IMG/VR virus record: IMGVR_UViG_3300013285_000039
Span: 1-34,975 of that record
DNA from: a virus
Direction: 5' to 3' (one strand)
Length of the DNA stretch: 34,975 nucleotides
Under the pieces are notes generated by a model. It did not search any database, had not been told where the DNA came from, and saw only the letters and a list, made by a program, of their open reading frames with translations. The position numbers were made by a program, and so were the translations under genes. Of the stretch, positions 2,809-26,260 are shown piece after piece (the stretch's first letter is position 1; every line of letters begins with the position of its first letter).

Positions 2809-3042
2809 TCACCCCTTCTTGTACCCAGGCGTCATCTGCCGAACTGCCCTCGCGTGACTCCGGCGCACTCCTTTGATCCGATACTTCGGCCGCTTAATCT
2901 TGATCTTCGGCGGTGGCGTGTAGGTATCCAGCGGCTTAAACGGATTGATTGGCTCCCTGCTGATGTGCGTGGTTGACTGTCCACCACCAAGAATGGCCCC
3001 AGCTATAGCAGCGAACGCCGACAGTTTGGATCCAAAGTTCAC
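2809..3042 (-). CDS. Small basic protein with hydrophobic N-terminus
   Basis: 77 residues. The GTG start at 3042 overlaps the DHH gene stop by GTGA. Residues 7-20 are Ala/Gly-rich and hydrophobic; the C-terminal half is proline-, lysine- and arginine-rich (PPPKIKIKRPKYRIKG). No family recognised. It could be a membrane-associated or nucleic-acid-binding peptide. The operon overlap is the best evidence that it is translated. Confidence 0.45.
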   Translation of the reverse strand: MNFGSKLSAFAAIAGAILGGGQSTTHISREPINPFKPLDTYTPPPKIKIKRPKYRIKGVRRSHARAVRQMTPGYKKG

Positions 3043-4112
3043 TGCACACCTCCTTGAACTGGAAGCACGCCATCCACCTCAGAGTTGTAGAACCCGCCAA
3101 GGATTCCATCGAGCGCCGGCAGTCGGATACGGAATCCGCACGCCCCTTTGTGCCCGCCGCCACCCCACCGCGAGGCTATCTTCGATAGGTCGATGCCCTC
3201 ATGGTCCGGCGCGTGGTACAGGCTCACGTAGATTGGTGTCTCTCCATCTCCAGTGTGGCGCCACGCGAACAGTGCCTGGTGCTCTGGCTTGATGCCTCCG
3301 TTGAACAGGTCGCTGCTCCCGCGCTGGCCAATGTTCAGGGCGCACATAGTGAGCCCATGGAACTTGATGGTGTGGCAGTGGGCCGCGGCGTACTCGGCGT
3401 TCTGCTTGTCGCAGTAGGACTTGATGGAGCGTCCAGTCTGGATCGCTTGCTCAAGCAGAATTTCCCCACCACACCCGCCGTTGAACTGAGAACGTACGAG
3501 CTTACTAATCTCTCGGTCACCCAGTGCGCGAAGCCCAAACTGGAGCGCCTTCGCATCTGGATCTCGGTGATCCCAGCAATCGTATTCCCCAGCGAGACGG
3601 ATCAACTCAGGTTCGAACACCTTGCGGTCGATGAAGTCCTGTTTGTTCGGCAGTGTGAATTTAACATCACCACCTTCCGTGTTGTTGAGGTGTATAACTG
3701 TGAACCACTGCAAACACAGCCGGCACGCAGCCACGCCGTCGATGCGGAATCCGTTAAATTTGCTCACATTGGGAATTCCGTGGTCGTCGTAAATGCCATC
3801 CCACTTCTCGATTGCTGACTTGTGGTGGTCGATCCAGACGACCTTCGAGCGCAGCTCAGGACGAGCCATCAGTTCATCCACCGAGAGATCGACGATGTAG
3901 ATGGCGTCGTAATCGGACCAGTAAACCTTACTTGGACGCTCATCGAGCACATAACAAAGCGGGATTAGTACCGGCAGCGGACGGCCATAGTCCCACCCAT
4001 ACGAATGAATGGCAGCTTCTGGGTAGTTATGCTCCAGGTAGAATCGGCACACCCCGTTGGAGAGTCGGCCATCCATGTCGGCATTGTGGTATATGATGGC
4101 GATGTTTTTCAT
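3039..4112 (-). CDS. DHH-family phosphoesterase (NrnA/NrnB-like)
   Basis: 357 residues. Metal-binding motifs appear in family order: HNADMDG at residues 9-15, VDLSVD at 74-79, IDHHKS at 94-99, and the DHHA1 motif GGGGHKGACGF at 317-327. DHH/DHHA1 enzymes hydrolyse phosphodiester bonds in short oligonucleotides (nanoRNases), cyclic dinucleotides or pAp, with two Mn ions. All key residues seem present, so it should be active. The substrate cannot be read from sequence. Phage roles could be nucleotide scavenging or removal of a cyclic-nucleotide defence signal; both are inference. It has its own ATG, with 42 bp of non-coding sequence upstream, and it overlaps the next gene by 4 bp. Confidence 0.85.
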   Translation of the reverse strand: MKNIAIIYHNADMDGRLSNGVCRFYLEHNYPEAAIHSYGWDYGRPLPVLIPLCYVLDERPSKVYWSDYDAIYIVDLSVDELMARPELRSKVVWIDHHKSAIEKWDGIYDDHGIPNVSKFNGFRIDGVAACRLCLQWFTVIHLNNTEGGDVKFTLPNKQDFIDRKVFEPELIRLAGEYDCWDHRDPDAKALQFGLRALGDREISKLVRSQFNGGCGGEILLEQAIQTGRSIKSYCDKQNAEYAAAHCHTIKFHGLTMCALNIGQRGSSDLFNGGIKPEHQALFAWRHTGDGETPIYVSLYHAPDHEGIDLSKIASRWGGGGHKGACGFRIRLPALDGILGGFYNSEVDGVLPVQGGVQ

Positions 4113-10219: not shown

Positions 10220-10840
10220 TCAAAAAGGCACATCGTCATCCTCAGGTGGTGGACCATCATCACCAACAGCTGCCGGCGAAGTGCCAGGCAGGCTTGGTTG
10301 GGATGTTGCTGGCGGGTGTGCGGGCGCGGAGGGACGGGCCGCTGGAGCACCAGTGGTTAATGATGGTGTCTTGGTTGCGATAGCCTTTGCGCGGCCAGTG
10401 ATCTTTGCGAGCAACCCCTGCAGCTTCGCGGGCTCCATGGGATCCTTTTTCGGGAGCCCACCAGGAGGGTTCAGCCATTTGATCCTGCACTTCTGCTTGC
10501 CCTCGTAGGTCTCCATCTCGGTCTCAATCTGACACGGGAGGCCAACGAGCGAGATGCGGCCATTGTTGAGCGACACGAAGTCGCCATTGAATCCGAAGAC
10601 CTCCTTCAATCGGGCCGCGGTACGGTCGACGTTCTCATCGGTGTTCAGCCACCCAAACCACGAGATGAACTCACCAGTGTGCCGCCCATCTTCACCAACA
10701 ACGTGGAGCGGGATTCGGATGTAGTCCTTACCGTTTGGTGTAGCGTTGAACCATCCAGATTCTTTCGGATCAACAACAATACACTCAACGATGCAGGCTT
10801 CATTTAAGGCGCGGACATTGCCGCTTGGAGTAGTACTCAT
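10220..10840 (-). CDS. Single-stranded DNA-binding protein-like
   Basis: 206 residues. The C-terminus ends EDDDVPF after a Pro/Ala/Gly-rich linker, matching the acidic tip by which SSBs recruit partner proteins. The N-terminal 130 residues contain a beta-rich segment (VECIVVDPKESGWFNATPNG, IRIPLHVVGEDGR, EFISWFGWL), plausible for an OB fold, though not the canonical bacterial SSB sequence. It sits directly after the Sak4-like ATPase in transcription order, as usual for Sak4 recombinase systems that work with SSB. Confidence 0.7.
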   Translation of the reverse strand: MSTTPSGNVRALNEACIVECIVVDPKESGWFNATPNGKDYIRIPLHVVGEDGRHTGEFISWFGWLNTDENVDRTAARLKEVFGFNGDFVSLNNGRISLVGLPCQIETEMETYEGKQKCRIKWLNPPGGLPKKDPMEPAKLQGLLAKITGRAKAIATKTPSLTTGAPAARPSAPAHPPATSQPSLPGTSPAAVGDDGPPPEDDDVPF

Positions 10841-10862: not shown

Positions 10863-11774
10863 TTATTTCGGGGTAGCAGCCAGGGTTTCGAGTTTTGCGA
10901 GAGCGCCTTTAAGGGTCTCGATTGGAGCGGAGTTCACGTTGGCAATCCATTTCGACCACTTAGCCTTTTCCGCCTCAGGGATTGCAGCGGCAGCGTACGC
11001 GGTGTTCACCTTGGAGCGGATCGAGCTGATGCTATTCTCCTCAACCGCTTGCGCGAATTCCGCCCACGAACGATCAGCTGGGAATGGAATTTCAGGGGGG
11101 AGGTTGAGGCGATTCTTGGCATCCCAAGCGGGCGACCAAACAGTGTGGATGACACGTTCACCAGAGACGGCCCGGCTGGATTTCTCGGACTTGTCCTTCG
11201 TCTTAAACACTGGAGTGACCGCGAACAAACAGGCGTCGGCCCACTCCCGGAGGATGCCGGTCACCTTCTTGTTTCCCTTCATCTCGTAGCGATCCCACTC
11301 ACCGCCGGAAGGATCCTTGAACGTCCGGATCTGAACGTGGGACAGGATAATGATCACCACCTTGTGGGCCTGACGAATTCGGTCCAATCGGCCCAGGATC
11401 GCGCTGAACTCCGATTCAGCGATCGTGAACCCCTTGCCGTAGCCGTAGTCTTCGATGTTGGCCTTATTGTCACGGAGGCACATGCCGGCGTACACGAGTC
11501 GTTCCAGCCAGTCCGCGGTGTCGATCACCAAGGTCTTGTGGCCGCCCATGTCCTGTTCCAGCCCGTCAAGGATACCAAGCAGATCAACAAGGCTGGTCGG
11601 GGAGATGCGAGAGACATGCTCCAATCCCGTCAAGCCCTCCTCGGCTGACAGGAAGAGCGGCTTTGGAGCCTGGGACGCGAATGTTGACTTACCGATTCCC
11701 TCAGGGCCGGCGAGTGTGATGCGGGGCGGAAGGGTTGCCTCCCCCTGCTTGATGCGTTGGAGAACACTGATCAT
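10863..11774 (-). CDS. Sak4-like RecA-fold recombinase/ATPase
   Basis: 303 residues. Walker A GPEGIGKST is at residues 23-31 and Walker B TLVIDT at 81-86. IILSHVQIRTF and a short helical C-terminus complete a single RecA-like core. It fits phage nucleotide-binding proteins of the Sak4 family, single-strand annealing or pairing proteins that act with SSB. Its ATG overlaps the nuclease stop by ATGA, and SSB is next, giving a nuclease-recombinase-SSB operon for recombination-dependent replication or repair. Confidence 0.75.
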   Translation of the reverse strand: MISVLQRIKQGEATLPPRITLAGPEGIGKSTFASQAPKPLFLSAEEGLTGLEHVSRISPTSLVDLLGILDGLEQDMGGHKTLVIDTADWLERLVYAGMCLRDNKANIEDYGYGKGFTIAESEFSAILGRLDRIRQAHKVVIIILSHVQIRTFKDPSGGEWDRYEMKGNKKVTGILREWADACLFAVTPVFKTKDKSEKSSRAVSGERVIHTVWSPAWDAKNRLNLPPEIPFPADRSWAEFAQAVEENSISSIRSKVNTAYAAAAIPEAEKAKWSKWIANVNSAPIETLKGALAKLETLAATPK

Positions 11775-12844
11775 ACGGTGATGGTTTGGTTTTCTTTCAT
11801 GTGGTTGAAGTAGGCCTCGAGGGCCAGGTGAATCAGGGTGCCGAGGTGAAGGGCTTCAGCCTCTTCGCCATCGACGCGGCGCACACCCTCCTCGTAGTGG
11901 AGGAAGTGCTTCCGAGCGCACTGCCGAAGGCACGAGACGCGGGAGTTTGTCAGCAGTTGACGGTCTCCGTCCCGTTGGAGTCTCAACTCGTTGTGGACGT
12001 TAGGAACCTTGTGATACCGGATTCCATCGACGGAAGCCCGGCCGGTGCACAGGTCGAAAAACTCACAGGTCCGGTTGTAGGCAGTGCAGGCGTTTGGGTT
12101 CCTTGGCCACAGCTTTTTGCTTCGGTAGTGGAGGATTTGCTGGGACAGATTCCATTCATCCTCCATGAAAGCGATGATCTCAGAATCCAAACGAGGAACC
12201 TCCTTTTGCGCGAAGTAGTCGTTGCGCTGCTCACGCAGGACTCCAATCAGGCGAGCTTCAAACTCGTCCGGAGTTTCCGGGCGCGTCTTGAGTACGTAGC
12301 CCTGCGCGGAGTCGGCAGACTCTCGCCACTTCTTCCCATCCTTTGTGCGGACCCGCTCACCGTTTGCGTCCATCACAATTTTCACGCCATCCGCATCTAG
12401 CAGGGGGATCTGTGACGGCCGGTGGGCTGGCTTTCCCATGACGTCGTACAGAACCCCCTGCACTTCCTCTCCCATACTTCGAGCCCCAAGGTCGTACTTC
12501 AAAACCTGGCCATCCATCTTCAGCCGGAGCCAGTAGTCACTCTCGGGGCCAACATCGTCCGAGGTGGTTTTGTGCTCTAGGACAGTCAGACGACCTGTTG
12601 ATCGGCGACGCAGCAGGACATCCATCTTGCCGGCCTCAACGAATGATTGGGACTTTCCCTCCGTGTCGGGATTCATCAGCGGGAACGAGAACTCATGTTC
12701 AACAGCAACAACCTCAAAATCCTTCCACCGATCAGCACCCCACACCTCATGGTACACAGAGATAATCGCCCGAGCTCTTGCCTGGGCGAACGCATCAGTT
12801 GATTTGATCGCGGACAAAGCCGCGTTCAGTGCTTCGGTGGTCAT
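11771..12844 (-). CDS. RecB/Cas4-like PD-(D/E)XK nuclease, circularly permuted
   Basis: 357 residues. Catalytic motifs run from the N-terminus: VAVEHEF (Glu49), AGKMD (Asp75), LEHKT (Glu90, Lys92), QVLKY (113-117). They are followed by three cysteines (253, 260, 266). The family's usual N-terminal block, LLTNSRVSCLRQCARKH (Cys305, Cys309) and LGTLIHLALEAYF (His339), is instead at the C-terminus. All expected parts, including the cysteines for an iron-sulfur cluster, are present but in rotated order. It probably resects DNA ends for the Sak4-like ATPase encoded by the overlapping next gene. First gene after the promoter at 12881-12909. Confidence 0.75.
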   Translation of the reverse strand: MTTEALNAALSAIKSTDAFAQARARAIISVYHEVWGADRWKDFEVVAVEHEFSFPLMNPDTEGKSQSFVEAGKMDVLLRRRSTGRLTVLEHKTTSDDVGPESDYWLRLKMDGQVLKYDLGARSMGEEVQGVLYDVMGKPAHRPSQIPLLDADGVKIVMDANGERVRTKDGKKWRESADSAQGYVLKTRPETPDEFEARLIGVLREQRNDYFAQKEVPRLDSEIIAFMEDEWNLSQQILHYRSKKLWPRNPNACTAYNRTCEFFDLCTGRASVDGIRYHKVPNVHNELRLQRDGDRQLLTNSRVSCLRQCARKHFLHYEEGVRRVDGEEAEALHLGTLIHLALEAYFNHMKENQTITV

Positions 12845-14078: not shown

Positions 14079-15221
14079 GTGAACACCTACAAGACCACCA
14101 AGAGGGGAAAGCAGATCTGGATTGCTGACCTCGGGAGGGTTGGTGGCAAGCGGAAGCGCATCCAGTGCGGCTCCCGCCGGGAAGCTGAGCTCGCCGTCGA
14201 GAATGCCGGGATCGAACAGAGACTGTCCGGTGAGCTCTGGGTTGGACTCTCGGCGCCGGAGCGTGTTGAGGTTGCGGCAATCCTTCAGGAAATGGGCCGG
14301 CATGGCGTCAGTCTCTCCACTGTCTGGCGAACCTACCTCGACGCCCAGAAAGGCCCGCCACGGGTCACTATGACTCTGGCGGAGGCTATCAAGGAGACGA
14401 TCTCTGTTAAGACGGCCGCCCGGCGCCGCCCCCGGTATGTAGAGGGTCTCCAAGACTACCTCAACCTGTTCGCCCGCGGGAGGGAAGAGATGGGGATCCA
14501 CCGCATTACTCCGGCAACGATCGACCAGTGGTTTGCCGGCAGGAGCGAGGCGCCACACACCAGGTCATCCAACACGGGCCGACTCGCGTCAATGTTCGCC
14601 CTAGCCGCCCGTCGAGGGTGGATCTCCGACAACCCTATAGACAGACTAGAGCGTGTCCATGTAGAGACCAAATCCCCGGCGGTGCTGTCCTCATCCCAGG
14701 CCAAGAGGATCCTCGCATTCACTCTGGAGAGGTACCCCAAGTGCTGTGTTCACCTCGTGCTCGCCCTGTTTGCCGGCATCCGACCCGAGGAGTTGCTGGC
14801 TATCCAGTGGGACTGCATTCGACTCCAGGACGGTACCGTCGAAATCGGCGCGGCTGCCTCGAAGGTTCGACGGCGGAGAGTGGTGCAGTTGGAGCCCGCT
14901 GCGGTGAAATGGCTGGAGCTCGCGAAATCTCAGAAGGCCGATCTTCCACTCACCCCAGGGCGGGCTCGCGTGTTCATCCGGAAGCTGCGTGGCGTCCTTG
15001 GATTTCGGAAATGGCCCCAAGACATCCTCCGCCATACCGCGGCGTCCTACTTGGTCGCCAAACGGAAAGACCTGCCAGCGGTGGCGTACAGCCTCGGGAA
15101 TTCACCTGGGGTACTACTCAGGTCCTACCACAACTTGGTCTCCTCCCAGGAGGCTGAACGGTTCTGGGGGCTGCTCCCTGATTCAGTGGGTGTGGACAGC
15201 GGAGACCGCGGGGCCACCTGA
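14079..15221 (+). CDS. int: Tyrosine recombinase (phage integrase)
   Basis: 380 residues, GTG start at 14079. An N-terminal arm-binding-like segment (residues 1-35) is followed by a core-binding SAM-like domain (about 98-195) and a catalytic domain with Arg235 (AGIRPEEL), Lys262, Arg318 (DILRHTAASY) and Tyr350 (LLRSYHNLV). The usual histidine three before Arg318 is Asp315, and the usual G-H-S histidine is Asn341 (LGNSP); such variants occur in integrases of Verrucomicrobiota-type elements. It should insert the phage at the tRNA-Ala core just upstream. It ends convergently, overlapping the terminase gene by 39 bp. Confidence 0.92.
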   Translation: MNTYKTTKRGKQIWIADLGRVGGKRKRIQCGSRREAELAVENAGIEQRLSGELWVGLSAPERVEVAAILQEMGRHGVSLSTVWRTYLDAQKGPPRVTMTLAEAIKETISVKTAARRRPRYVEGLQDYLNLFARGREEMGIHRITPATIDQWFAGRSEAPHTRSSNTGRLASMFALAARRGWISDNPIDRLERVHVETKSPAVLSSSQAKRILAFTLERYPKCCVHLVLALFAGIRPEELLAIQWDCIRLQDGTVEIGAAASKVRRRRVVQLEPAAVKWLELAKSQKADLPLTPGRARVFIRKLRGVLGFRKWPQDILRHTAASYLVAKRKDLPAVAYSLGNSPGVLLRSYHNLVSSQEAERFWGLLPDSVGVDSGDRGAT

Positions 15222-18029
15222 GACTGTGCCGCCGAGCTCGTACTTCAGGATCGGGTAGGACAATCCATCGAAGACGTGGATGTGCCCGGCGACAGTTTTC
15301 TTCGGCCGCAGTGGCTTCGCCTTGTCCTCCTCGAGCATGTTCAGCATCTCTTTAACATGGTGGCACTGGTCCGAGATTAGGAGCCTGTCCTGCTGTAGCA
15401 ATCCCTGAGTGAGACGCACTCGAGTCTCAACCGACCCATCCCCCTTCGGGCAACCAACCATGGTCATTGGAGGTAGGTTATTGATCAAAATTGCGCGGTT
15501 GAACTCAGACTGAAACTCCCAGGCATCGTACGAACCACCAGAACCGGGGCGCCACTGGTTAACCGCTGAGTCGTCAGCGATGTGCTCCCAGGCCATCTTT
15601 TGGCCAATAAATTTGTTCCACATCAGGATCTTCTCGACGATCTCGATGGCCATCACCTTGTAGAGGATTTTCTCGTTCAAGTGGCACACCTCGTCGAACA
15701 CCATCCACACAGCGCCGTCTTTTGTTGGAACCAACTGCTCAAAGATCGCTGTCGAGTACACCTGGCCAAGGTCGTACCCAATCGTGCATGGCAGCCCCGG
15801 CTTCGGCCTCAGCCCGGTGCCGAGCCTGGCATTCCCAACAACGTGACGTTGCGGGATGAATCTAGCCCGAAACAGAGCGTCACCAGTCGGCCTCTCAACC
15901 CACTTACCCTCGATCAACCGAGCCCGCTCAATCGGATCGTCTCGGACTGCCCGCTCAAGATTCTCCAGGTACGACCGCATCTCCGGCCGGTGGGAGTTCT
16001 CTCGGAACGGCACATGGTAGACCGAGAATGCTGGATCTCGAACGCCGGTCTCATGGTTCACCGGCTCCTCGAAGAAAGCCTTGTAAACCCAGTTTGACGG
16101 ACCCTTTGGATTGCAAGTTCCAACGTACTGTTGAGGCCCTTGGATGTGCCGGCGCCGGTTCAGCTGGGCCGACACTAAGCGTAGATACTCACGGCCCTCG
16201 CAGTCAGTGAGCTCGTCAGCGAGCGCGTACGAAGGGTGGATGCCTTTAATGCGGCTGGCGATTGCTTCGGCGTACGGAATGGCGATCTGAAGAACAGTTG
16301 ACCAGCCGCCATGGCGGTTCGCCACCTTCATCACTCGATCCTTAGTGTTTGGATCCAGCTTGGAAGGAATCCACTCCAGGCCAATTCCTTCCTCCCACGC
16401 CGGCAATACCAGCGTCTCTAGGTCATGGATGACGCCAAATTTTCCAGTACGAATCGAAGGAGTGATAATCAACCCGAGCGCATCCCAGTTTTCGTAGCAG
16501 TGCCGAACCATCTTGTGCTCGGCGCCAACGGACTTTCCTGAGTTGTGGTTAAGAGTTCCTGAGGCGATAAAGCTGTGCGGTCCTGGAACGCGCAGGTCAG
16601 CAAGGGATGCGGTTGAGCTAGAGGTCTTGATGACCTCTAGCCAGTTTTCTGATGCGAGGAATTGGTCAAGCTCTTGGCATTGGCCGTAAATAGCTTTGAA
16701 CTCCTCAACCTTTGGTTTTTGCGGTATTGACCCAAACGAATGGATTTTCCGGTGTTTATCGTGCCACTCCCGATTTCTGTGCTCCAACCCATCGTGACTC
16801 TTCCTAATTCCAGATCGACTAGCAAAGGCGATCCCATTCATTACCGAACGAATCGGATCTGGGTATCCATACCTATTTGAATTCCACCCATTTGGAGACA
16901 GTCTGCTTACTTTTGGATCGCGGATACGATCCAGCTTCCTAGCAATCTCAAACCCAACTACTTTACCAAACTCATGGGCGTGCTTACCCATGATTGAAAT
17001 CGTCCACGTCGGATTTCCACTGGCCGACTTTTTGGGTCTCCTGGAAGACAAGATTCCCATTACCAACAGAATGTCTTGAACATCCCTTCCGAGCCCCTCA
17101 GAGGTGGTGCAAAATGAAACGGTTCCAGATTTTTCGACAGTGCCATCCGTGTCGAATAATCCACGAAGGAATGCTGTTGTGCATAATTTTCCTGAAGCCA
17201 CTACTTTTCCAGGGATTCGCTTCGAATTGGATAATCCAACCAACCCGAGGTTCTGGAGCACCTTTGCGATGTTACCTCTGGGAAGGACGGAGTATTGGCA
17301 GTGCTTTGATTGGCTTGGAGACTGGTTTAGGAAGCAACTGATTTTCCTAAGTCCAGCATCAACCCGCCGGATGCATTCCGGATCCATGTTCGTGAACCCA
17401 ATGGACCTCGCGTCTCCAGAATCGAAATTCAGACTACCATCACCACACAGGGCGCCAAGTGAGTAGCACAGATCCAAATCCATCAAACTCGGCTGATCCC
17501 ATGACGGATGGGGGACTATGGGAGTCCAGAATCTTCGACCCAAATGCATCAATGCATTCAGCTCATCGAACTTGACCCAACGAAACGTGAAACTCCCGTC
17601 CAGACGTGATTCGCATGCCCAAATTGGGTGGCGCGGGGAACCGGTAATTTCTGATCCATTCTCAAGATCCACACGAACAGCCTCAGTTCCAGGCTCAATC
17701 CAATAAGCGTCAGCAGTGGCTAGCTCATTTTGGTTAGCCCAAACCCGTTGGGAGATTTGGTTGAATCCGTAGGTTGCTCCCGGCGGAGAAAGATCCCCAA
17801 GCCTGGATACTCCTTGGTCAGTGCAGATCCACGTATCCAGCGTCCGGCACCCCTTCTCCCCGTATGCCAAAATAAACGGAGCGGGATCATCGAAGATCTT
17901 TTTCTGTGTCGGATTCAGGTCCGGAGACCACGGTTTTTCATCAGGCTTACGAGGGCTATGGTTTGGCTCGAAGTCAGCCTCAATGGCTGCCAGTGCCTCG
18001 ATCTCTTGTTCAGTTGGAAGTGACGGCAT
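15183..18029 (-). CDS. terL: Terminase large subunit containing an intein
   Basis: 948 residues, 512 after removal of the 436-residue intein. Extein 1 (residues 1-60) ends FILAYGEKG and extein 2 begins SGKSVGAEHK; joined they give the Walker A motif GEKGSGKS. Walker B-like YALADELTDCEG and a coupling-like VGTCNPKGPSNW follow. The C-terminal nuclease domain starts IGYDLGQVYST, with later acidic residues (HIADDSAVNQW, HVFDGLSYP). The enzyme pumps DNA into the prohead and cuts concatemers. It is on the minus strand, divergent from portal and convergent with integrase. No small subunit was firmly identified. Confidence 0.93.
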   Translation of the reverse strand: MPSLPTEQEIEALAAIEADFEPNHSPRKPDEKPWSPDLNPTQKKIFDDPAPFILAYGEKGCRTLDTWICTDQGVSRLGDLSPPGATYGFNQISQRVWANQNELATADAYWIEPGTEAVRVDLENGSEITGSPRHPIWACESRLDGSFTFRWVKFDELNALMHLGRRFWTPIVPHPSWDQPSLMDLDLCYSLGALCGDGSLNFDSGDARSIGFTNMDPECIRRVDAGLRKISCFLNQSPSQSKHCQYSVLPRGNIAKVLQNLGLVGLSNSKRIPGKVVASGKLCTTAFLRGLFDTDGTVEKSGTVSFCTTSEGLGRDVQDILLVMGILSSRRPKKSASGNPTWTISIMGKHAHEFGKVVGFEIARKLDRIRDPKVSRLSPNGWNSNRYGYPDPIRSVMNGIAFASRSGIRKSHDGLEHRNREWHDKHRKIHSFGSIPQKPKVEEFKAIYGQCQELDQFLASENWLEVIKTSSSTASLADLRVPGPHSFIASGTLNHNSGKSVGAEHKMVRHCYENWDALGLIITPSIRTGKFGVIHDLETLVLPAWEEGIGLEWIPSKLDPNTKDRVMKVANRHGGWSTVLQIAIPYAEAIASRIKGIHPSYALADELTDCEGREYLRLVSAQLNRRRHIQGPQQYVGTCNPKGPSNWVYKAFFEEPVNHETGVRDPAFSVYHVPFRENSHRPEMRSYLENLERAVRDDPIERARLIEGKWVERPTGDALFRARFIPQRHVVGNARLGTGLRPKPGLPCTIGYDLGQVYSTAIFEQLVPTKDGAVWMVFDEVCHLNEKILYKVMAIEIVEKILMWNKFIGQKMAWEHIADDSAVNQWRPGSGGSYDAWEFQSEFNRAILINNLPPMTMVGCPKGDGSVETRVRLTQGLLQQDRLLISDQCHHVKEMLNMLEEDKAKPLRPKKTVAGHIHVFDGLSYPILKYELGGTVSGGPAVSAVHTH
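16542..17849 (-). other. Intein with LAGLIDADG homing endonuclease domain
   Basis: 436 residues, Cys61 to Asn496 of the terminase precursor. Splicing motifs: N-terminal Cys (CRTLDTWICTDQG), block B ITGSPRHPIW, block F/G PHSFIASGTLNHN, with Ser as the first residue of extein 2. The centre holds two LAGLIDADG-type helices, LGALCGDGSL and LRGLFDTDGTV, both keeping the catalytic aspartate. Everything needed for splicing and homing seems intact. It sits between the glycine and serine of the terminase P-loop, so unspliced protein could not bind ATP. A hand count of two sampled lines gives 45% GC here (17101-17160) against 53% in the extein (15661-15720), which hints at separate origin. Confidence 0.92.
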
Positions 18030-18653: not shown

Positions 18654-20933
18654 ATGCCACTCAACTACGAAATCCTCAAATCAGTTGGAACCACCGACGA
18701 GCGACTGCGCGAGCTATTCACTGCTGACAGTTCAATGATTAAGGAGGGAATCAGTGACGACGCAAGGAAGCGAATTGAGGCAGACATTAAGAAGCGAGCA
18801 GAGATCGAGGACATGATCTACACCAGAGTGCAGGAGGCCACCCTGCAGACTCTGAAGACCAGCCACTTCTTCTCAGCCGTTGATCTCGCTTGGGACTCAT
18901 CGACGATCACTCAAAGAACGATCCCATTGGTCCTCTACGCCCAGCGACGCATCGACATGCAGTTGTGTGCCAAGCAGCTGGGAGACATGAAATGCGCCGA
19001 CTCCTACGTTAAATACGACGCCAGCCATAAGCCGGTTGGAATTGATCTTCCGAAGTTCACCGAGGTGAACATCAACATACTTCGTTCGATCATCAGCCGT
19101 CGCGTTGCAGCTCAGTCGGCCCGCTACACCAACCTTTATCCGTTTTTCAAGTACGACTGCCGAGGCACCTCTGAAGAGGAGAAGCTGAAGGCGGACCTGC
19201 TATCCCAAAGAATGGACATCATGGCCGACCAGTTCGGCTATCGAGATCTGCAGGTCCAGTGGATTCGGGACATGCTCCTGTATCCGTACAGTGTAGTTTT
19301 CCCCGCCTGCCGGTGGCAGCGTGATGTTGAGTGGTACTCAGATGCTGAGGATATTGCCGCTGAATTTCAGGCCAGCGATCAGCAGGTAAGGCCAAAGGCT
19401 AGAGTCACCCGAGAGGGGGTCCCACTCACCTCGCCTCACCCGTCGAGGGTTTTCTACGACCTCGCTCACCCGATCCAATCGATCAACTCCGACAGTGGGT
19501 GCGAGTGGTTTGGATTTTGGGACATAGCTCGATTCAGCACGGTTTTCGACAACCCTGAATTCTTCAACAGAAACAACATCACCTACTCACCCGATGTGGT
19601 GCAGTGGTTTGGCAACTACTCGTCCTACTTCTCGCAGTACTACACCACCGTCACACCTCCCCCAATGAGTGAGGATATGGCGATGGCGAACGATCGCCTG
19701 GCCCAGATTGGCAAGTACACCATGACGCTCAAGGACACCTCAGTGTTCATGGCTCATCTGTACCTGAAGATCTCTCCAGCCCAGTGGGGCATCGGCAGCT
19801 ACCCGTTTCCGGTTTGGATCCATTTGGTGGTAGCCAACAACAAGCACGTTGTCGCAGCTGAGATCATGCCGGACTGCCCGGGATTCGTGTTCACTTTCAA
19901 CACAAGTTCCCAGCGGCTCGTAAACATGTCGATGGCTCACGAGCTTCTCCCTTTCCAGGATCAGCTAAGCAACCTCTACAGCCAGCTCTTGGAGTGCGCC
20001 AAGCGCGACCTGTTTGGGATCGCGATGATCAACTTGGATGCATTCCCGACAGAGAATCCAGAATCTAAAAAGGCGTTGGAGCAGTTCCGAGCCGCCATGA
20101 AGGGGGACAACTTCTTCGCATCAACCACGATCTTGGAAGTTTCCCTCATCAAGTTCAGAGAGCTTGGGATCGATTTGGATAAGGTGTTCAAAATCATCCG
20201 ATCGGAGCCAAACACCGAGCTCAACATGATCATCAACGCGATCCGACAGACCATCGAGTTGTCGGAGCGAGTGATGGCATTGTCCCCTCAAGAGCAAGGC
20301 CAGCAGAGCCCTCGAGAAACCTCTGCCACTGAGGTGCAGATAATCGCCGGCACCACGGAGAACATCTACCAGTTCATCAGTGACGCGATCGACAGCGGAC
20401 GGTCGGCAATCAAGCGATACGACTACAACGCTCTGATCTCGTGCGGAACGGAAGAGATCTACCTACCAGTGATCAGCCGCTATCGCAAGGAGACCGCTAT
20501 AAAGGCCGGGTTCAAGATCACCTCCGAGGAGCAAATCCCAGTGCAGGGATCTGTTGGGAATGCATCTCACTTTGCGGTCGAAGGCACGAAGAAAAACTTG
20601 ATCGCGGCGTACATCTTCAACTCCCGAGACGGAGCCGAGAGATCCAGCAACATCCAGGCGGCCCAGGCGCTCACTCAGATGCTTGGAATCCTGATGCAAC
20701 CGGCCGTCATGGCGATGCTAACCAAGGACGGGCTGGCCGACATTATCAACAGCATCATTCGACAGTCCGGGGCTGGAATCGACGTAACAATCGAACCACC
20801 ACCAGGCCAAGGCGGCACCCCAGTGATGGACACCCAGGCGGCTCAACCTGGACCCGCCCAGGCTCAACCGCAGCCGCAGCCCCAAGGGGGCATTAGCCCG
20901 GCGGTGATTTCCCAGACACTTCCCACGCAGTAA
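18654..20933 (+). CDS. Portal protein
   Basis: 759 residues, ATG directly after the upstream stop. Position between terminase and scaffold, great length and the layout support portal: a long helical N-terminus, a middle part with VWIHLVVANNKHVVAAE and PFQDQLSNLYSQLLECA, a helix-rich region with SPRETSATEVQIIAGTTENIYQF, and a Pro/Gln-rich end (AQAQPQPQPQGG). The S-A-T-E-V-Q element recurs in portal proteins. It forms the dodecameric ring at the capsid vertex through which DNA passes. The size is close to that of P22-like short-tailed phages. Confidence 0.8.
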   Translation: MPLNYEILKSVGTTDERLRELFTADSSMIKEGISDDARKRIEADIKKRAEIEDMIYTRVQEATLQTLKTSHFFSAVDLAWDSSTITQRTIPLVLYAQRRIDMQLCAKQLGDMKCADSYVKYDASHKPVGIDLPKFTEVNINILRSIISRRVAAQSARYTNLYPFFKYDCRGTSEEEKLKADLLSQRMDIMADQFGYRDLQVQWIRDMLLYPYSVVFPACRWQRDVEWYSDAEDIAAEFQASDQQVRPKARVTREGVPLTSPHPSRVFYDLAHPIQSINSDSGCEWFGFWDIARFSTVFDNPEFFNRNNITYSPDVVQWFGNYSSYFSQYYTTVTPPPMSEDMAMANDRLAQIGKYTMTLKDTSVFMAHLYLKISPAQWGIGSYPFPVWIHLVVANNKHVVAAEIMPDCPGFVFTFNTSSQRLVNMSMAHELLPFQDQLSNLYSQLLECAKRDLFGIAMINLDAFPTENPESKKALEQFRAAMKGDNFFASTTILEVSLIKFRELGIDLDKVFKIIRSEPNTELNMIINAIRQTIELSERVMALSPQEQGQQSPRETSATEVQIIAGTTENIYQFISDAIDSGRSAIKRYDYNALISCGTEEIYLPVISRYRKETAIKAGFKITSEEQIPVQGSVGNASHFAVEGTKKNLIAAYIFNSRDGAERSSNIQAAQALTQMLGILMQPAVMAMLTKDGLADIINSIIRQSGAGIDVTIEPPPGQGGTPVMDTQAAQPGPAQAQPQPQPQGGISPAVISQTLPTQ

Positions 20934-20953
20934 ATACCAAGGAGAGAAAAACC

Positions 20954-22249
20954 ATGCCCAAAGAAGCACCCGCAGATCAGGCGCCGCGAATGATTGATGA
21001 CCCACTTTTGGCGTCACTCGCGGATGACCTGTCGATCACCATCAACACCGAAGCTGCGACAGCCGAAAATGCTGCGCCCCAGATCACAGCTGCCCCTGCA
21101 GAGGAAAAGCCGGCGGAGAAAAAGGCGGACCCAGAACCCGCCAAAGAGGCCGCTCCAGCTCCGAAGGTTCGGGTTGTTAAGAAGCCGGACATCACCAGCG
21201 CGGTTGAGGAAGGTGTTCGTCGAGGGATGGCGGCAAGTCAACCGGTGGCTCCAAAACTTCCAGACCCCAAGCCTGAAGAAATCGACACCACCGGCTTGTT
21301 GCCTGAGCAAGTTGAAGAGATCAAGGATGCTCAGTTTGCTGAAACCGTTGATCCAAGCCGAAAGGGGTACGCCAAGGAGGTGGCTGCTTATTACAAGGGA
21401 GTTGACGCCTGGGTTGAGGCAAAGAAAAAGGAGAACCCAGATCGTGTGTTTGACCGCAGCGACCGCGAGTTCATGGAGTTCATCGAGAAGTCGCGCCCGA
21501 AGGTGAGTGATTCTGATCGCCAGAAGTTCAAGCGCGATCGGGTTACCGCGGAGGTTACTGCCAAAGTGAAGGCAGATCTCGCTGGAGATCTCGAGGCTAC
21601 ACGCCGAACCGCTGACGAGGCCCGTGTGGCTCCAGTGATTGAGAGGGCTGTCTCGAGCTTCCAGGAATCGTTCCAGAAGGCTACCGAGACAACCGACCCA
21701 TTGGCTGCCGGAATATATGAGACCGCAGCAGCATCAGCAGCCCGTTACGCCGAGGACCTGCTTCGCGTAGTGAATGGCGTGGACGTAATCGGCCACAAGA
21801 GCAACACCGCAGATCTCTCCGAGCGCCACAGAAACCTCCTGGGGTTCATTGGAGATCGAGCTGAGCACTTCAAGAAGCATGGCGGAGACGAGCGTATTCG
21901 AGATGGTCGAGAGTTTGTCACACTCACCGAGTTCCATAACGCGAAAGTTGCTGGCAAGGATACGAGCAAGATCTGGACCTATGGCACCAATGATCTGCTG
22001 AACCTCATAAAGACTGGGTTCGTTGATAGCGCAAATTCCCAGATAAAAGCCGAGGAAGAGCGGGTCGCTAAGCTGGGTTTTGTTCGTCAGCCGAAAGCTG
22101 AGGAGCGCAAAAAGGCAGAAGACCCAAAGCCTTCATCTGGCATCAGGGTTAACCCAACCCCAGCTCCAGGTGCCGCAAACACCAATGCCCCAGCGGAGAT
22201 TGAGCATATTGGAAACGAACTCATTCAGGTTCTTGGTCTGAAGTCGTAG
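20954..22249 (+). CDS. Capsid scaffolding protein
   Basis: 431 residues with ribosome-binding site GGAGAG 8 bases before the ATG. It is very Ala/Glu/Lys/Pro-rich: a disordered N-terminus (AAPAEEKPAEKKADPEPAKE), long charged helices in the middle (SDRQKFKRDRVTAEVTAKVK, ERHRNLLGFIGDRAEHFKKH) and a disordered stretch before a short C-terminal helix (IEHIGNELIQVLGLKS) of the kind that contacts coat protein. Its place between portal and major capsid genes is the standard one for an internal scaffold of the prohead. No protease motif was noticed. Confidence 0.75.
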   Translation: MPKEAPADQAPRMIDDPLLASLADDLSITINTEAATAENAAPQITAAPAEEKPAEKKADPEPAKEAAPAPKVRVVKKPDITSAVEEGVRRGMAASQPVAPKLPDPKPEEIDTTGLLPEQVEEIKDAQFAETVDPSRKGYAKEVAAYYKGVDAWVEAKKKENPDRVFDRSDREFMEFIEKSRPKVSDSDRQKFKRDRVTAEVTAKVKADLAGDLEATRRTADEARVAPVIERAVSSFQESFQKATETTDPLAAGIYETAAASAARYAEDLLRVVNGVDVIGHKSNTADLSERHRNLLGFIGDRAEHFKKHGGDERIRDGREFVTLTEFHNAKVAGKDTSKIWTYGTNDLLNLIKTGFVDSANSQIKAEEERVAKLGFVRQPKAEERKKAEDPKPSSGIRVNPTPAPGAANTNAPAEIEHIGNELIQVLGLKS

Positions 22250-22272
22250 TTTCACAGGCAGGCAATTCACGT

Positions 22273-22322
22273 CGCCCACTGGATGCGCTCTGAAAAAGAG
22301 CACTCCTGTGGGCGTTTTCTTT
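22273..22322 (+). terminator. Nested stem-loop with T-rich tail before the capsid gene
   Basis: An outer stem CGCCCAC/GTGGGCG (22273-22279 with 22308-22314) encloses an inner GCTCT/AGAGC hairpin and is followed by TTTTCTTT. It looks like a rho-independent terminator lying 46 bp before the major capsid ATG, so it may separate scaffold and capsid transcript levels or mark a processed mRNA end. Confidence 0.65.
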
Positions 22323-22368
22323 GGAGCGTCAGCTATCGCGGGAGGATGTGGGCGAAAACTAAAAGCCT

Positions 22369-24171
22369 ATGTCCGTCCAAACCACCTTTCCCGGTTTTAA
22401 TGCCAATAACTGCACTCCGCTGTTCTTCGGCGTTGATGGCAGCACTGGCGCATCACTCACCCGAGCCGACATCCGGCCCTTCACGAAGGACGACTTCGCT
22501 GCACAGGGAATGAAGGAGGTCGGTATGGACCGTATCATCGCCCAGACCAAAGAGGCTCGACTCATTGGTGTTCCCCAGCGGGCCTTGATGGATCTGATCC
22601 TCTCTCGGCATGCCCCAATCAAGGAAGGGTCCGCCGGCCCGAGCCAGTCCGTTATCGCTCCGTACCGACTTATCCCGCGCCGGTCGGTTGTGAACATCAA
22701 CTACTTCTTGGTTGGTGCCGGCTCCGCAACGCAACCCAGCGATCCCGCAACCCCGTTCCCGAACACCCTGCCTGCCACCGCGTGGTATCTCACGGTCACC
22801 GCCTCTACTGGCGGGTTCGGTAGCGCGATCAACAACATCGAGCGGTACTTCCTGCCTGGGATGTATCTCTCCGTTGAGACCACTGCCCGCCACGTTGGAA
22901 CTGCCTGGCAAACCTTCGTTGGCGGTGGCGCCATCGACTCTGGTCTGCAGCTGCAGTTCCGAGTTGTTGCCGCGGTTGGTAAGCTCGGCGACGCAACTAC
23001 GGCGTACCTAGTTGTTGCTCCCACGGAATTTCAGTCACAGGAGGCGTCGGCCTCCGGTTGGGCTGCCTACTCTGCTGACTCCACCACCGGGTCCGCGCCG
23101 TTCCAGAACGCCCGCGTTGCCAGCACTCAGGTCACCAAGGGCACCTTGCTGATCCTGGCGAACAGCGTCAGCGACAGGGAAGCCTGGTGCTACCAGCCGC
23201 CGGCCATCAACAACCTCGGACTGATCGAGCGTTGGCGCCAGACCTACCGATGGACCCACCAGTACGACGACGAATACGTCAAGGCTCTGGAGGCTCCTCT
23301 CACAAGCGAGTTCTTCAAGAAGTTCCGCACCCTTCCGATTGCTGAGCAGCGCCGGCAGCAGGAAATGCTGAACCAGAAGTGGTATTTCAACACCGTCTTC
23401 TACGGCCAGCGAATCAGTGACCAGCAGACCGTCGGAAACTGGCTGAACCTACCTCAGGTGACCGACATCACCAACCCCGGCAATGTGCTGGAGTACAAGT
23501 CGAACACACTCGGAATCCGGACCCAGCTCGGAGAGTGCGGCAAGATCCTCGACCTGAACGGTGGAGCTCTGAACATCGATACCATCATGCTTCTGGCCTA
23601 CAACCTGAAGCGCGAGCGCGGCAACGATGGCTCTGACATTCAGACCATCGACATCATGACGGATCGTTTCACAAAAGCGAAGATCCGCGATTTGATGGTA
23701 TCGTACTACAAGGCAAAGTACGGCGCCAACATCACAATCATGATGCAGCTCAACCAGAAGCTGGTTGCGAGCGTCACGAATCGGATGGTGTTCGAGTACG
23801 ATACCTACGACCTGCCTGATCAGGGCGTGTCGATCTCGATCTTCACCGACACGTTCTTCGACGACCGCATCGGTGCCGCCCAGAGTCTGGGTGCGAGCGG
23901 TGGAAATAAGTTCCGAGCCAAGTCGATGTGGTTAATCGACTGGTCGGACATCAGCATCGATGTCCACGGAAACCGGTCTGTCACCCGCCAGACCAACGTG
24001 GCCGACGACATCTATAACTGCGTGATTGATCCCAACATCAATCACTACAAGCTGAACTCCCGCACCATCGAGGTGGCTGTTGGCAATGTGAATCGCCACT
24101 GCCTCATCGAGAACTTCAGTGATGCATGTCCGACGGTCAGCGTCTCTAGCTGCGCCGTGACTCTGGTGTAA
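22369..24171 (+). CDS. Major capsid protein
   Basis: 600 residues following scaffold. It has the mixed alpha/beta composition of coat proteins: a long N-arm (residues 1-45), a helix with GMDRIIAQTKEARLIG, LIERWRQTYRWTHQYDDEY, and a C-terminal part with TIDIMTDRFTKAKIRDLM and FEYDTYDLPDQGVSISIFTD. The exact family was not recognised, but gene order (portal, scaffold, this, decoration-like protein) and size make the call strong. An HK97-type fold is expected but not shown. It is large for a coat protein, so an insertion domain is likely; residues about 110-270 are beta-rich and Gly/Ser/Thr-rich. Transcription hairpins flank the gene on both sides. Confidence 0.8.
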   Translation: MSVQTTFPGFNANNCTPLFFGVDGSTGASLTRADIRPFTKDDFAAQGMKEVGMDRIIAQTKEARLIGVPQRALMDLILSRHAPIKEGSAGPSQSVIAPYRLIPRRSVVNINYFLVGAGSATQPSDPATPFPNTLPATAWYLTVTASTGGFGSAINNIERYFLPGMYLSVETTARHVGTAWQTFVGGGAIDSGLQLQFRVVAAVGKLGDATTAYLVVAPTEFQSQEASASGWAAYSADSTTGSAPFQNARVASTQVTKGTLLILANSVSDREAWCYQPPAINNLGLIERWRQTYRWTHQYDDEYVKALEAPLTSEFFKKFRTLPIAEQRRQQEMLNQKWYFNTVFYGQRISDQQTVGNWLNLPQVTDITNPGNVLEYKSNTLGIRTQLGECGKILDLNGGALNIDTIMLLAYNLKRERGNDGSDIQTIDIMTDRFTKAKIRDLMVSYYKAKYGANITIMMQLNQKLVASVTNRMVFEYDTYDLPDQGVSISIFTDTFFDDRIGAAQSLGASGGNKFRAKSMWLIDWSDISIDVHGNRSVTRQTNVADDIYNCVIDPNINHYKLNSRTIEVAVGNVNRHCLIENFSDACPTVSVSSCAVTLV

Positions 24172-24193
24172 TCGCCAAGGATTCAATCAATAG

Positions 24194-24216
24194 CCCCGGG
24201 GCGCAAAACCCCGGGG
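24194..24216 (+). terminator. Strong GC hairpin after the capsid gene
   Basis: CCCCGGGG, loop CGCAAAA, CCCCGGGG: a perfect 8-bp stem, 23 bases after the capsid stop. No T-run follows (AGTAAAAAC), so it may stabilise the capsid mRNA 3' end or pause transcription rather than terminate it. Confidence 0.55.
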
Positions 24217-24239
24217 AGTAAAAACAAACTCCCCAATTT

Positions 24240-24674
24240 ATGGCCAAATCCGAAGCCCCTCTCCACCAAGTTGGTGCCACTCAAATACCTCAAGACAAAG
24301 TCGGCGGTCGTCGCGTATTCGCTGACGAAGTTGTGGCCGAAGGCGGGCTCACCCAATGGGTCGCCCAGACTGCCCCCGTCGTCGTACTGGCTGCGGCCGG
24401 TACAAACCAAGCCACCGCATCCGCAATCACCTTGGTTCCGATCACGAAGGTTACCGGCGGAGATGGCACCAAAGGTGTCGTTCTCCCGCAGCCAACAGGA
24501 GCACTTGCCAGCACTATGCGTGTGGTCTCTGTGAGTGGCGCATTGAAGGTTTACCCCCCAGTCGGAGGAACCATCAATGGCGGATCCGTGAACGCCAACA
24601 TCACCCTGTCTCAGAACATTCCCGCTGAATTCACCTGCCTTGACGGCCTGACCTGGTTCAGCCGATTCAGCTGA
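24240..24674 (+). CDS. Capsid decoration/head-fibre-like protein
   Basis: 144 residues. The pattern GTNQATASAITLVPITKVTGG, KGVVLPQPTGA, MRVVSVSGALKVYPPVGGTINGG and ECT-type ending FTCLDGLTWFSRFS matches a beta-sandwich domain common in phages directly after the coat gene: A-T-x-I, G-V-x-L-P, V-x-N/S-x-x-x-x-x-V-Y-P-x-x-G-x-x-I-N-G, C-x-x-x-x-x-W. Such proteins decorate capsids or form head fibres. It lies between two hairpins, so its expression may be linked to that of the coat protein. Confidence 0.65.
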   Translation: MAKSEAPLHQVGATQIPQDKVGGRRVFADEVVAEGGLTQWVAQTAPVVVLAAAGTNQATASAITLVPITKVTGGDGTKGVVLPQPTGALASTMRVVSVSGALKVYPPVGGTINGGSVNANITLSQNIPAEFTCLDGLTWFSRFS

Positions 24675-24713
24675 TCAATTTTGGCTGCGTTCTCTCCCGC
24701 AGCCATCCCGACG

Positions 24714-24750
24714 CCCCCAGGTGCAGCGTGAGTTGTGCCTGGGGGTTTTT
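24714..24750 (+). terminator. Rho-independent terminator
   Basis: CCCCCAGG (24714-24721) pairs with CCTGGGGG (24738-24745) over a 16-base loop and is followed by TTTTT (24746-24750). It ends the head-gene block and lies 8 bp before the lipoprotein ATG. Confidence 0.8.
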
Positions 24751-24757
24751 GGTAGCT

Positions 24758-25552
24758 ATGAAAAAGTACATCCCACTCCTGCTGGTGCCAGCCATTGCTG
24801 GATGCGTTCTATTCCACCCTGCTGAGAGGGCTCAAAAGAAAGCCCTATCCAAAGCCGCGGCGAGCGATACCTACATGGCTGAGGAGGCAAAGTCGATGAC
24901 TACGGCCGCGCTCGACGCGCTCCAGCGGGCGCCGACGAACGCTCCGGTAAACATGGCAAAAGCGTTTCTGGAGCGCGACCAGCAGATCCTTGGGCTGCCA
25001 GTGCAGCGGATCGACGTGGATTCCCTCCTGGCTTCAAACAGGGTGGCGATAGACGACCTGCGCCGCAGGTTTGATGTCCAGCAGGCAAGGTTCGAGGAGC
25101 GGGCGTCCATTCAGCGGGAGCTGAAGGAGGTCAATGATCGTCTTGCTGAGATGGGGAAGCTCTACGAGCAGGAGAAGGCCAAGCACGTCTGGCGCAGAAT
25201 CTGGGAGTGGGCGATCGGCACGTTGGGGTTCGGCGGTCTAATTGCCATCGTGATTTTCTGCCCCGTGGTGATTCCGATCATTGGATCGCTGTTTGGATCC
25301 TTGGTCTCATCGTTTCCACAGATCGGCCACTTCATTGGACTGGTCTCCAAGCCGGCCGCGGACGCCGTCATCAAGGGAATCGGTGAGGCTAGGGCCAAGC
25401 TCAAGCTCACCGCAGATGTAGCACCGGAAAAGACCTACACAGCGAAGGATGCGCTCGCCCTGTTGGACTCCGAGCTCAAGGAGGCCACTGAAGTTGGAAG
25501 CGCAAACTTCAAGAAGTTCGTCGATTTCTCACGTCAAAAACTCAACGTATGA
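24758..25552 (+). CDS. Spanin-like lipoprotein with transmembrane segment
   Basis: 264 residues from ATG at 24758; a GTG at 24728 in frame lies inside the terminator hairpin and is unlikely. The signal peptide MKKYIPLLLVPAIAGC carries a lipobox with Cys16. Residues about 95-143 are a charged coiled coil (DDLRRRFDVQQARFEER, ELKEVNDRLAEMGKLYEQEK). Residues about 152-183 are strongly hydrophobic, and an 80-residue helical tail follows. An outer-membrane lipid anchor, a coiled coil and an inner-membrane segment in one chain is the plan of unimolecular spanins that fuse the two membranes at lysis, though the long C-terminal tail is unusual. It overlaps the holin-like gene by ATGA. Confidence 0.5.
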   Translation: MKKYIPLLLVPAIAGCVLFHPAERAQKKALSKAAASDTYMAEEAKSMTTAALDALQRAPTNAPVNMAKAFLERDQQILGLPVQRIDVDSLLASNRVAIDDLRRRFDVQQARFEERASIQRELKEVNDRLAEMGKLYEQEKAKHVWRRIWEWAIGTLGFGGLIAIVIFCPVVIPIIGSLFGSLVSSFPQIGHFIGLVSKPAADAVIKGIGEARAKLKLTADVAPEKTYTAKDALALLDSELKEATEVGSANFKKFVDFSRQKLNV

Positions 25553-25854
25553 GCCTAATTCAGCACGCCAGCGAACTTGTTTCAAACCTGCTGTCACAGC
25601 CAGACCACCCCCGGGACTCCATACCGGTCGCAGTCGTTAAGGGGGCGATTGGTGTGGCGGCGGCTACCGGCCCCGTTATCGCGTCACGGCTAGTCACCGT
25701 AGAGTTGTGGATGAAGCTCGGCGCTATTGGGTGTGGAATCTTGGTTTCGATCCTCACCGGAATATCGATCGGCATGACCATCGAGCGGAAGATTCGACTT
25801 CGGCATGAGGAGATGAAGCAGGGCCACATCATCAGGACCCAGGATCCAAGTTGA
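25549..25854 (+). CDS. Holin-like membrane protein
   Basis: 101 residues with two hydrophobic segments: about 27-48 (VAVVKGAIGVAAATGPVIASRL) and 54-77 (WMKLGAIGCGILVSILTGISIGM). A charged C-terminus follows (IERKIRLRHEEMKQG). This is the plan of small phage holins with a cytoplasmic basic tail. ATGA overlap with the spanin-like gene gives a compact lysis pair, but no endolysin gene is next to it. Confidence 0.5.
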   Translation: MSLIQHASELVSNLLSQPDHPRDSIPVAVVKGAIGVAAATGPVIASRLVTVELWMKLGAIGCGILVSILTGISIGMTIERKIRLRHEEMKQGHIIRTQDPS

Positions 25855-25885
25855 CTTTTCTGCCACCCTTTTTCAAAGGTATCAC

Positions 25886-26260
25886 ATGGCCAAATACTTT
25901 CGGCTCGTAGCCAGCATTGGAACTCCCACGTTTCGCCCCATCAACCACTACATGGGTGTGTGGTACGGAGTTGCTGAGGTGAATGACGATGTTGAGATTG
26001 CTCGCCTCACTGCGGCTGGATGCCAGGAGATCACTGAGGCTGAGTACGAGGATCAGCTGGCAAAAAAAAAGGCACTGGACTCATCGACGGGATTGGATTT
26101 TCGGCCACTCCACAACGGAGCTGCCCAACCTGCGGCCCCAAAGGCTCCAGAGCCCCCTAAGGACATTAAGGCTGAGGACCTACGCTCCGCAGAGACCATC
26201 CCCGCGCCGGCTACCCCGCCGGTCCCCTCACTGCCTGAGCCCAAGAAGGCGTCGAAATGA
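25886..26260 (+). CDS. Small Pro-rich protein, unknown function
   Basis: 124 residues. Residues 1-60 look folded (YFRLVASIGTPTFRPINHYMGVWYGVAEV, ITEAEYEDQL). The rest is Pro/Ala/Glu-rich and probably disordered. No family recognised. A run of nine A at 26062-26070 contains an in-frame A-AAA-AAG heptamer. It is coupled by ATGA to the connector gene, so a head-completion role is possible. Confidence 0.55.
   Translation: MAKYFRLVASIGTPTFRPINHYMGVWYGVAEVNDDVEIARLTAAGCQEITEAEYEDQLAKKKALDSSTGLDFRPLHNGAAQPAAPKAPEPPKDIKAEDLRSAETIPAPATPPVPSLPEPKKASK

Follow-up and report, generated by a model that had tools for sequence, protein, structure and literature searches.

In RecB/Cas4-like nucleases, the block that carries a cysteine and the histidine helix normally stands at the start of the chain. 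Cas4-type nucleases possess an Fe–S 'iron staple', made up of one N-terminal and three C-terminal cysteines (PMC4176176, PMC5704561). Cas4 and Cas4-like nucleases of pfam12705, among them SSO0001, Pcal_0546 and phage exonucleases such as Keanu gp40, share with the protein described here the PD-(D/E)XK motifs and the four-cysteine staple but are unpermuted and mostly shorter. Canonical phage relatives belonging to PHROG 1218 (L024, L027 and L032, from IMG/VR) are about 45–50% identical to it over the core, have the same motifs and, in most cases, the DGKKWRE insert, and are likewise encoded upstream of Sak4 and SSB; they differ in that their Cys/GTxxH block is N-terminal.

Recurrent permutation is known from Type I restriction S subunits (PMC3874165), where a two-part repeated layout makes it easier; no internal repeat was seen in the nuclease described here. 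It is also known from amino-methyltransferases, including jumbo-phage DAMs with and without permutation (PMC7824862, PMC3320104). Like the present nucleases, these are DNA enzymes that have been permuted repeatedly, phages included, but they have another fold, and duplicated intermediates are documented among them, whereas none was found in the nuclease family. Circular permutation as such is known; its recurrence at several sites of an iron-staple nuclease we have not found described. Our literature search returned no description of permuted Cas4/RecB-like or PD-(D/E)XK nucleases. The 2012 superfamily review by Steczkiewicz et al. reportedly notes permutations within the wider PD-(D/E)XK superfamily. 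What is unusual in the present case is the occurrence of at least three separate events at three cut points, one of them inside the active-site hairpin.

Segment order of the window nuclease

The window, by which we mean the whole stretch of 34,975 nucleotides analysed here (IMG/VR virus record IMGVR_UViG_3300013285_000039), contains an intact 357-aa open reading frame with an ATG start at 11771..12844 on the minus strand, as are all the nuclease features and neighbouring operon genes given below. The initial annotation described it as the nuclease of a recombination operon and claimed that it is circularly permuted, with the normal N-terminal block attached to the C-terminus. The order of genes at the locus is nuclease–Sak4–SSB. 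The Sak4-like single-strand annealing ATPase (10863..11774; PHROG 124, 1.2e-38; Pfam AAA_24) shares 4 bp at its start with the nuclease stop, and it is followed by a probable single-strand DNA-binding protein having an acidic tail with a DDDVPF end (10220..10840; PHROG 378, a weak match with E 0.02).

Read from the N-terminus, the nuclease shows a helix, NPDT, G72-x-x-D75, E90-H-K92 and Q113-xxx-Y117, then C253, C260 and C266, and finally C309 and G335TLIH339LALE343. The canonical chain order, with the first core helix before the three strands, is absent, the GTLIH helix being C-terminal. For comparison within the family we used four segment profiles: A, the N-terminal Cys block and GTxxH helix; B, up to GKxD; C, from ExK to DGKKWRE; and D, the three-cysteine end up to HxEL. 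In these terms the window gene encodes a PD-(D/E)XK (Cas4/RecB-like) nuclease of the permuted order B-C-D-A. Segment B, delimited by its HMM, covers residues 16–77 (12614..12799), with the first helix, the NPDT motif and the strands up to G72-x-x-D75. Segments C and D were delimited by segment HMMs and conservation: C covers residues 88–184 (12293..12583), including the E90-H-K92 and Q113-xxx-Y117 motifs and the DGKKWRE hairpin insert, and D covers residues 185–287 (11984..12292), including C253/C260/C266 of the Fe–S motif and an HNEL end that corresponds to the canonical C-terminus. Linker lengths in the family place an eight-residue linker at 288–295 (11960..11983), between the former C-terminus and the former N-terminus. 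It leads into segment A, residues 296–346 (11807..11959; PDDEXK_1 positions 4–54, PHROG 1218 positions 6–61), which is the canonical N-terminal block, now C-terminal, and holds C309 and the core helix G335TLIH339LALE343. The initial annotation had placed this block at residues 280–357; its C-terminal location stands, its start has to be moved to about residue 291–296, and residues up to about 287 still belong to the canonical C-terminal segment.

The PDDEXK_1 profile (PF12705) matched the window protein with 57.5 bits against a cut-off of 22, in two stretches in swapped order, the better one aligning residues 300–350 with profile positions 4–54. PHROG 1218 also matched in two swapped stretches, residues 14–267 corresponding to profile positions 90–330. 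When the pieces were given separately, each found its own part of PHROG 1218, the C-terminal piece alone covering positions 6–61 (6e-10); this small piece alone also matched PDDEXK_1 (1.8e-9), whereas PDDEXK_1 gave no match to the large piece alone. Against a canonical profile built from 27 canonical-order relatives, the native window protein scored 352.7 bits over profile positions 59–345 only, and the same protein rotated by 290 residues scored 410.5 bits over positions 5–344; rotation points between 280 and 295 scored almost equally. Rotation also raised the scores of L022 from 408 to 465 bits, of Tunturi_2 from 190 to 240 bits and, with a different rotation point (210), of the CDAB protein L135 from 279 to 402 bits. 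A canonical control protein scored highest without rotation, and a shuffled sequence remained below 0 bits. The gain on rotation, set against the shuffled copy, shows that the rotation is not a chance effect. Profile–profile comparison in linear mode aligned the permuted and canonical families over segments B–D only.

The short length of the C-terminal piece (about 65 aa) might suggest that residues 291–357 are instead an unrelated C-terminal domain of chance or convergent likeness, the true N-terminal block being missing. We consider this very improbable, and it can be taken as already refuted by the profile matches. The piece on its own matches both PDDEXK_1 and PHROG 1218, at positions absent from the remainder of the protein; it contains the invariant Cys and His; its relocation by rotation completes the canonical profile; and AlphaFold2 places it confidently inside one domain. 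Comparison with close homologues shows that residues from about 291 to 357 are homologous to the N-terminus of the canonical relatives.

Whole-record searches with the canonical profile in 12 virus records that encode a permuted protein gave exactly two matches each, both within one open reading frame and in reversed order; the canonical record L278, searched in the same way, gave a single linear match. With this profile no extra copy of any segment was found in the window or in the other records searched whole, no further credible segment copies occurred in the short open reading frames of the relatives' loci examined, and a second N-terminal block did not turn up in any permuted relative. 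Neither of the two outcomes that the initial annotation had named as refuting its claim was thus observed. The pieces are all present once, as the initial annotation had proposed; their order is cyclically shifted, and homologues have the other order. Because the remaining sequence features of pfam12705 are present, we regard the window protein as a permuted variant of the RecB/Cas4-like branch rather than an ordinary member of it.

Relatives and the three chain orders

We collected 87 distinct complete relatives by scanning IMG/VR, contigs of GTDB and phage records; most of them are from IMG/VR. Three orders are found among them: the canonical ABCD (35 sequences), the BCDA of the window (37) and CDAB (15). 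None of the 87 has the order DABC or a duplicated or partly duplicated order, and no plasmid relatives were found. Besides the window protein, 36 distinct sequences have the order BCDA. Among the BCDA carriers are two cultured phages of Acidobacteriota with complete genomes, the Tunturiibacter phages Tunturi_1 and Tunturi_2, and a Chthoniobacterales MAG contig. L033, L135 and 13 others represent the second rotation, CDAB, whose cut separates the catalytic Asp from ExK. Its members start with a sequence like 'MKVYLWETKT', a few residues ahead of ExK, and end right after 'GGKVDAIV', the catalytic Asp and Glu/Lys lying at opposite ends of the chain.

In-frame stops located one or two codons upstream of the Met in L277, L010 and L135 indicate that the new N-termini of the permuted forms are genuine; in L135 the stop two codons before the start makes a longer N-terminus impossible. 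The D-to-A linkers are 6–14 residues long in all permuted forms. Every relative checked, with all three order classes represented, encodes Sak4 downstream of the nuclease, and in many of them an SSB follows Sak4. This retained order of nuclease then Sak4 argues that the nuclease does the same job in all three classes.

An artefact, such as a mis-assembled contig, a frameshift or a wrong start, could in principle yield an apparent change of order, the more so as the relatives come mainly from metagenome contigs and the canonical L164/L271 gene is split by an NN gap. This explanation is scarcely credible: the order of the window is present in 37 distinct sequences and in two complete genomes of cultured phages, in-frame stops bound the start in several cases, and both parts form one open reading frame under strong purifying selection.

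Three further observations concern individual relatives. The split gene of L164/L271 was examined as a candidate fission intermediate and rejected, as it is a canonical relative in two frames with an NN assembly gap. L035 and L198, from Tunturi phages, lack the DGKKWRE hairpin insert that most members keep, or have another sequence in its place. L197 is a canonical-order copy on a bacterial MAG chromosome and is broken across several frames, either as a degenerate prophage gene or through sequencing errors.

Number and origin of the rotations

For the phylogeny, the four segments of each sequence were rearranged into the canonical order; the maximum-likelihood tree (66 rows, IQ-TREE, LG+C20) requires three changes of order. 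The first leads to the main BCDA clade, to which the window and Tunturi sequences belong (support 96/85); the second concerns L022 alone, nested with the canonical L024, L025, L027 and L028 (100/97); the third gives rise to the CDAB clade, which has 100/100 support and sits within canonical sequences. Trees that force all BCDA sequences into one clade are rejected (p-AU 0.001), as are those that do so for all permuted sequences (p-AU 0.0002). When distant canonical-order phage nucleases were included as an outgroup, the base of the tree was poorly resolved and the nesting of L022 and CDAB persisted. The branches of the Tunturi type are long and the basal nodes uncertain, which affects the count of rotations preceding the three clear ones.

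The position of L022 is also indicated independently of the tree. In each segment its closest relative is canonical, and for A, B and D the nearest is L024, L025 or L027. The chain is broken about 15 residues further on than in the window type, and a short AALxAL helix is C-terminal in L022 and N-terminal in the window type. The L022 form was found in three contigs from different IMG datasets, one of them partial (L022, L277 and the partial L300), and its core identity to the closest canonical relatives reaches about 68%. In this type the C-terminus overlaps the ribosome-binding site and start of Sak4. The L022 tail 'AQHAA' was considered as a relic of the canonical C-terminus, an idea that was discarded: these residues are just the reading frame running on across the ribosome-binding site and start of the following gene. 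Judged by these comparisons, the L022/L277 rotation is a third, independent and relatively recent one.

The sequences consequently indicate that the family has rotated at least three separate times and in three different places: in the main BCDA clade, in the BCDA of L022/L277 and in CDAB. The initial annotation had spoken of a rare clean rotation; the idea of a single rare event was an understatement.

An alternative scenario derives BCDA, CDAB and ABCD from one event, an ancestral ABCD-ABCD duplication that was kept for a while and then trimmed in different ways. The D-to-A fusion and the short linkers of 6–14 residues shared by BCDA and CDAB would fit this scenario, and duplicated intermediates of this kind are predicted by permutation by duplication (PMC3320104). 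However, none of the 87 sequences is duplicated, even in part; L022 and CDAB lie inside canonical clades, joint clades being rejected with p of 0.001 and 0.0002; and the scenario requires the intermediate to have lasted through several lineages and then to have disappeared from all of them. We consider a single duplication improbable and favour separate rotations.

For such separate rotations, tandem duplication followed by trimming would be the simplest genetic route (PMC3320104): a tandem gene copy could be joined by a few linker residues and shortened at whichever outer loop, with the fold retained. No tandem or partly duplicated intermediate was found among the relatives, and the route is put forward as a proposal. 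As for why the family should tolerate rotation, the Fe–S cluster would hold the former N- and C-terminal regions close to each other, and a linker of only 6–14 residues would be enough because the staple keeps the old termini adjacent. The staple is likely the cause of the permutability, as a rationalization of the pattern; the finding that cysteine mutants of one Cas4 remained active (PMC4176176) counts against it. On balance, we find it rather probable that a family without internal repeats was permuted at least three times in phages, at three loops of which one lies between the metal-binding Asp and ExK, and that the Fe–S staple predisposed it to this. If so, a cut between Asp and ExK leaves each end of the chain to supply one half of the active site.

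Predicted function and other genes of the window

The residues expected of a RecB/Cas4-like nuclease were located in the window protein by conservation. The catalytic Asp75 (RecB motif II; 12620..12622) and His339 (RecB motif I; 11828..11830) are invariant in all 87 relatives. The equivalent of His339 in Cas4 is the metal-site His (PMC4176176). The catalytic E90-H-K92 (RecB motif III) lies at 12569..12577 and the QhXXY motif, Q113-xxx-Y117, at 12494..12508. A single CDAB row, gapped at these positions, is the only one of the 87 without Lys, Gln and Tyr, and Glu is replaced by Asp in five BCDA sequences. The iron-staple pattern is present with its chain order rotated: C253, C260 and C266 (12047..12088) form the three-cysteine end, and the fourth cysteine, C309 (11918..11920), is N-terminal in canonical relatives and C-terminal here. 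All four are invariant in 87 of 87 sequences, across the three orders. The conserved cysteine set recognized by the initial annotation is borne out, the number being exactly four instead of 'four-plus', with C309 the only invariant cysteine of the proposed 'CxxC/RKH' block.

Selection on the permuted genes is purifying, with dN/dS of 0.04–0.16 in permuted pairs with estimable dS. For the window/L001 pair, synonymous sites are near saturation and the overall dN/dS is about 0.10; dS was saturated, giving no ratio, for the L010/L016 pair and for the C-terminal part of the window/L001 pair.

AlphaFold2, given the window protein together with 23 permuted relatives, predicted a confident single domain (pLDDT 92.7, pTM 0.87). 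The model shows the core elements to be expected, with strands at 43–57, 64–80, 86–94 and 128–137, a helix region at 103–123 and the core helix at 328–351, C-terminal. The three break sites of the family all fall in loops on this model, namely after residue 351, in the 13–17 loop and in the 81–85 hairpin between strands two and three. The corresponding CDAB model is poor (pLDDT 49, only 10 sequences). PDB searches with the window protein or the permuted-family profile gave no useful match; the canonical family profile matched 4IC1, which we take to be SSO0001, weakly and in canonical order.

It is conceivable that the permuted protein is catalytically dead or has been repurposed as a DNA-binding partner of Sak4, and that rotation was tolerated since activity was no longer needed. 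Nuclease activity is predicted from sequence, and the termini of CDAB flank the active site, which would be compatible with such a loss. Yet His, Asp, Lys and QxxxY are kept in the permuted rows, apart from the single gapped CDAB row and the five BCDA sequences with Asp for Glu, and purifying selection acts on both parts of the protein. A dead or repurposed protein therefore seems quite unlikely to us.

We consider it highly probable that the window encodes a functional permuted Cas4/RecB-like iron-staple nuclease that resects DNA for Sak4 and SSB, in a family rotated at least three times, with the Fe–S tie as the most likely reason. Its order, homology, single segment copies, conservation and recurrence are read from the sequences, and from these we infer a Cas4-like fold, nuclease activity, an Fe–S cluster and an origin by tandem duplication. 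In the proposed structure, the canonical termini would be fused by the linker of eight residues, the new termini would lie in the loop after the first core helix, and the usual alpha-beta-beta-beta-alpha-beta core would carry an Fe–S cluster on C253/C260/C266/C309. The enzyme would work like its canonical orthologues, resecting DNA ends and so providing the single-stranded DNA for annealing by the adjacent Sak4 and SSB proteins in phage recombination. Sak4 is an annealing protein stimulated by its own SSB (PMC5928155). The window protein has no match to the Cas4 model TIGR00372, in NCBIfam or in PADLOC, and its neighbours are Sak4 and SSB; it thus lacks the marks of a Cas4 of CRISPR adaptation, namely a match to that model and nearby cas genes.

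One enzyme with three chain orders, the same operon and the same catalytic residues represents a natural experiment in re-threading. Direct comparison of the three forms could address the route through a tandem duplicate, the tolerance provided by a metal-cluster clamp and the cost of a cut in the active-site hairpin. Such questions are testable because the three orders coexist and one rotation is recent, core identity to the nearest unrotated relatives reaching about 68%. Permuted proteins are split or scored too low by linear annotation profiles, which suggests that phage recombination nucleases are probably being missed.

Several other genes of the window were also recognized. A tyrosine integrase at 14079–15221 on the plus strand (Phage_integrase, 8e-10) lies on the strand opposite the recombination operon, which suggests a temperate phage. 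The 948-aa large terminase (15183–18029, minus strand) is interrupted close to its Walker A motif ('GEKGC...NHNSGKSV') by an intein that includes a LAGLIDADG endonuclease domain (LAGLIDADG_3 1e-14, Intein_splicing weak). A DHH phosphoesterase-like protein is encoded at 3039–4112 on the minus strand (PHROG 4771, 3e-22). Little of the structural module received an assignment: the region 18654–29475 on the plus strand is occupied by large open reading frames without PHROG matches, and it is followed by one match to a virion structural protein at 29497–31920.
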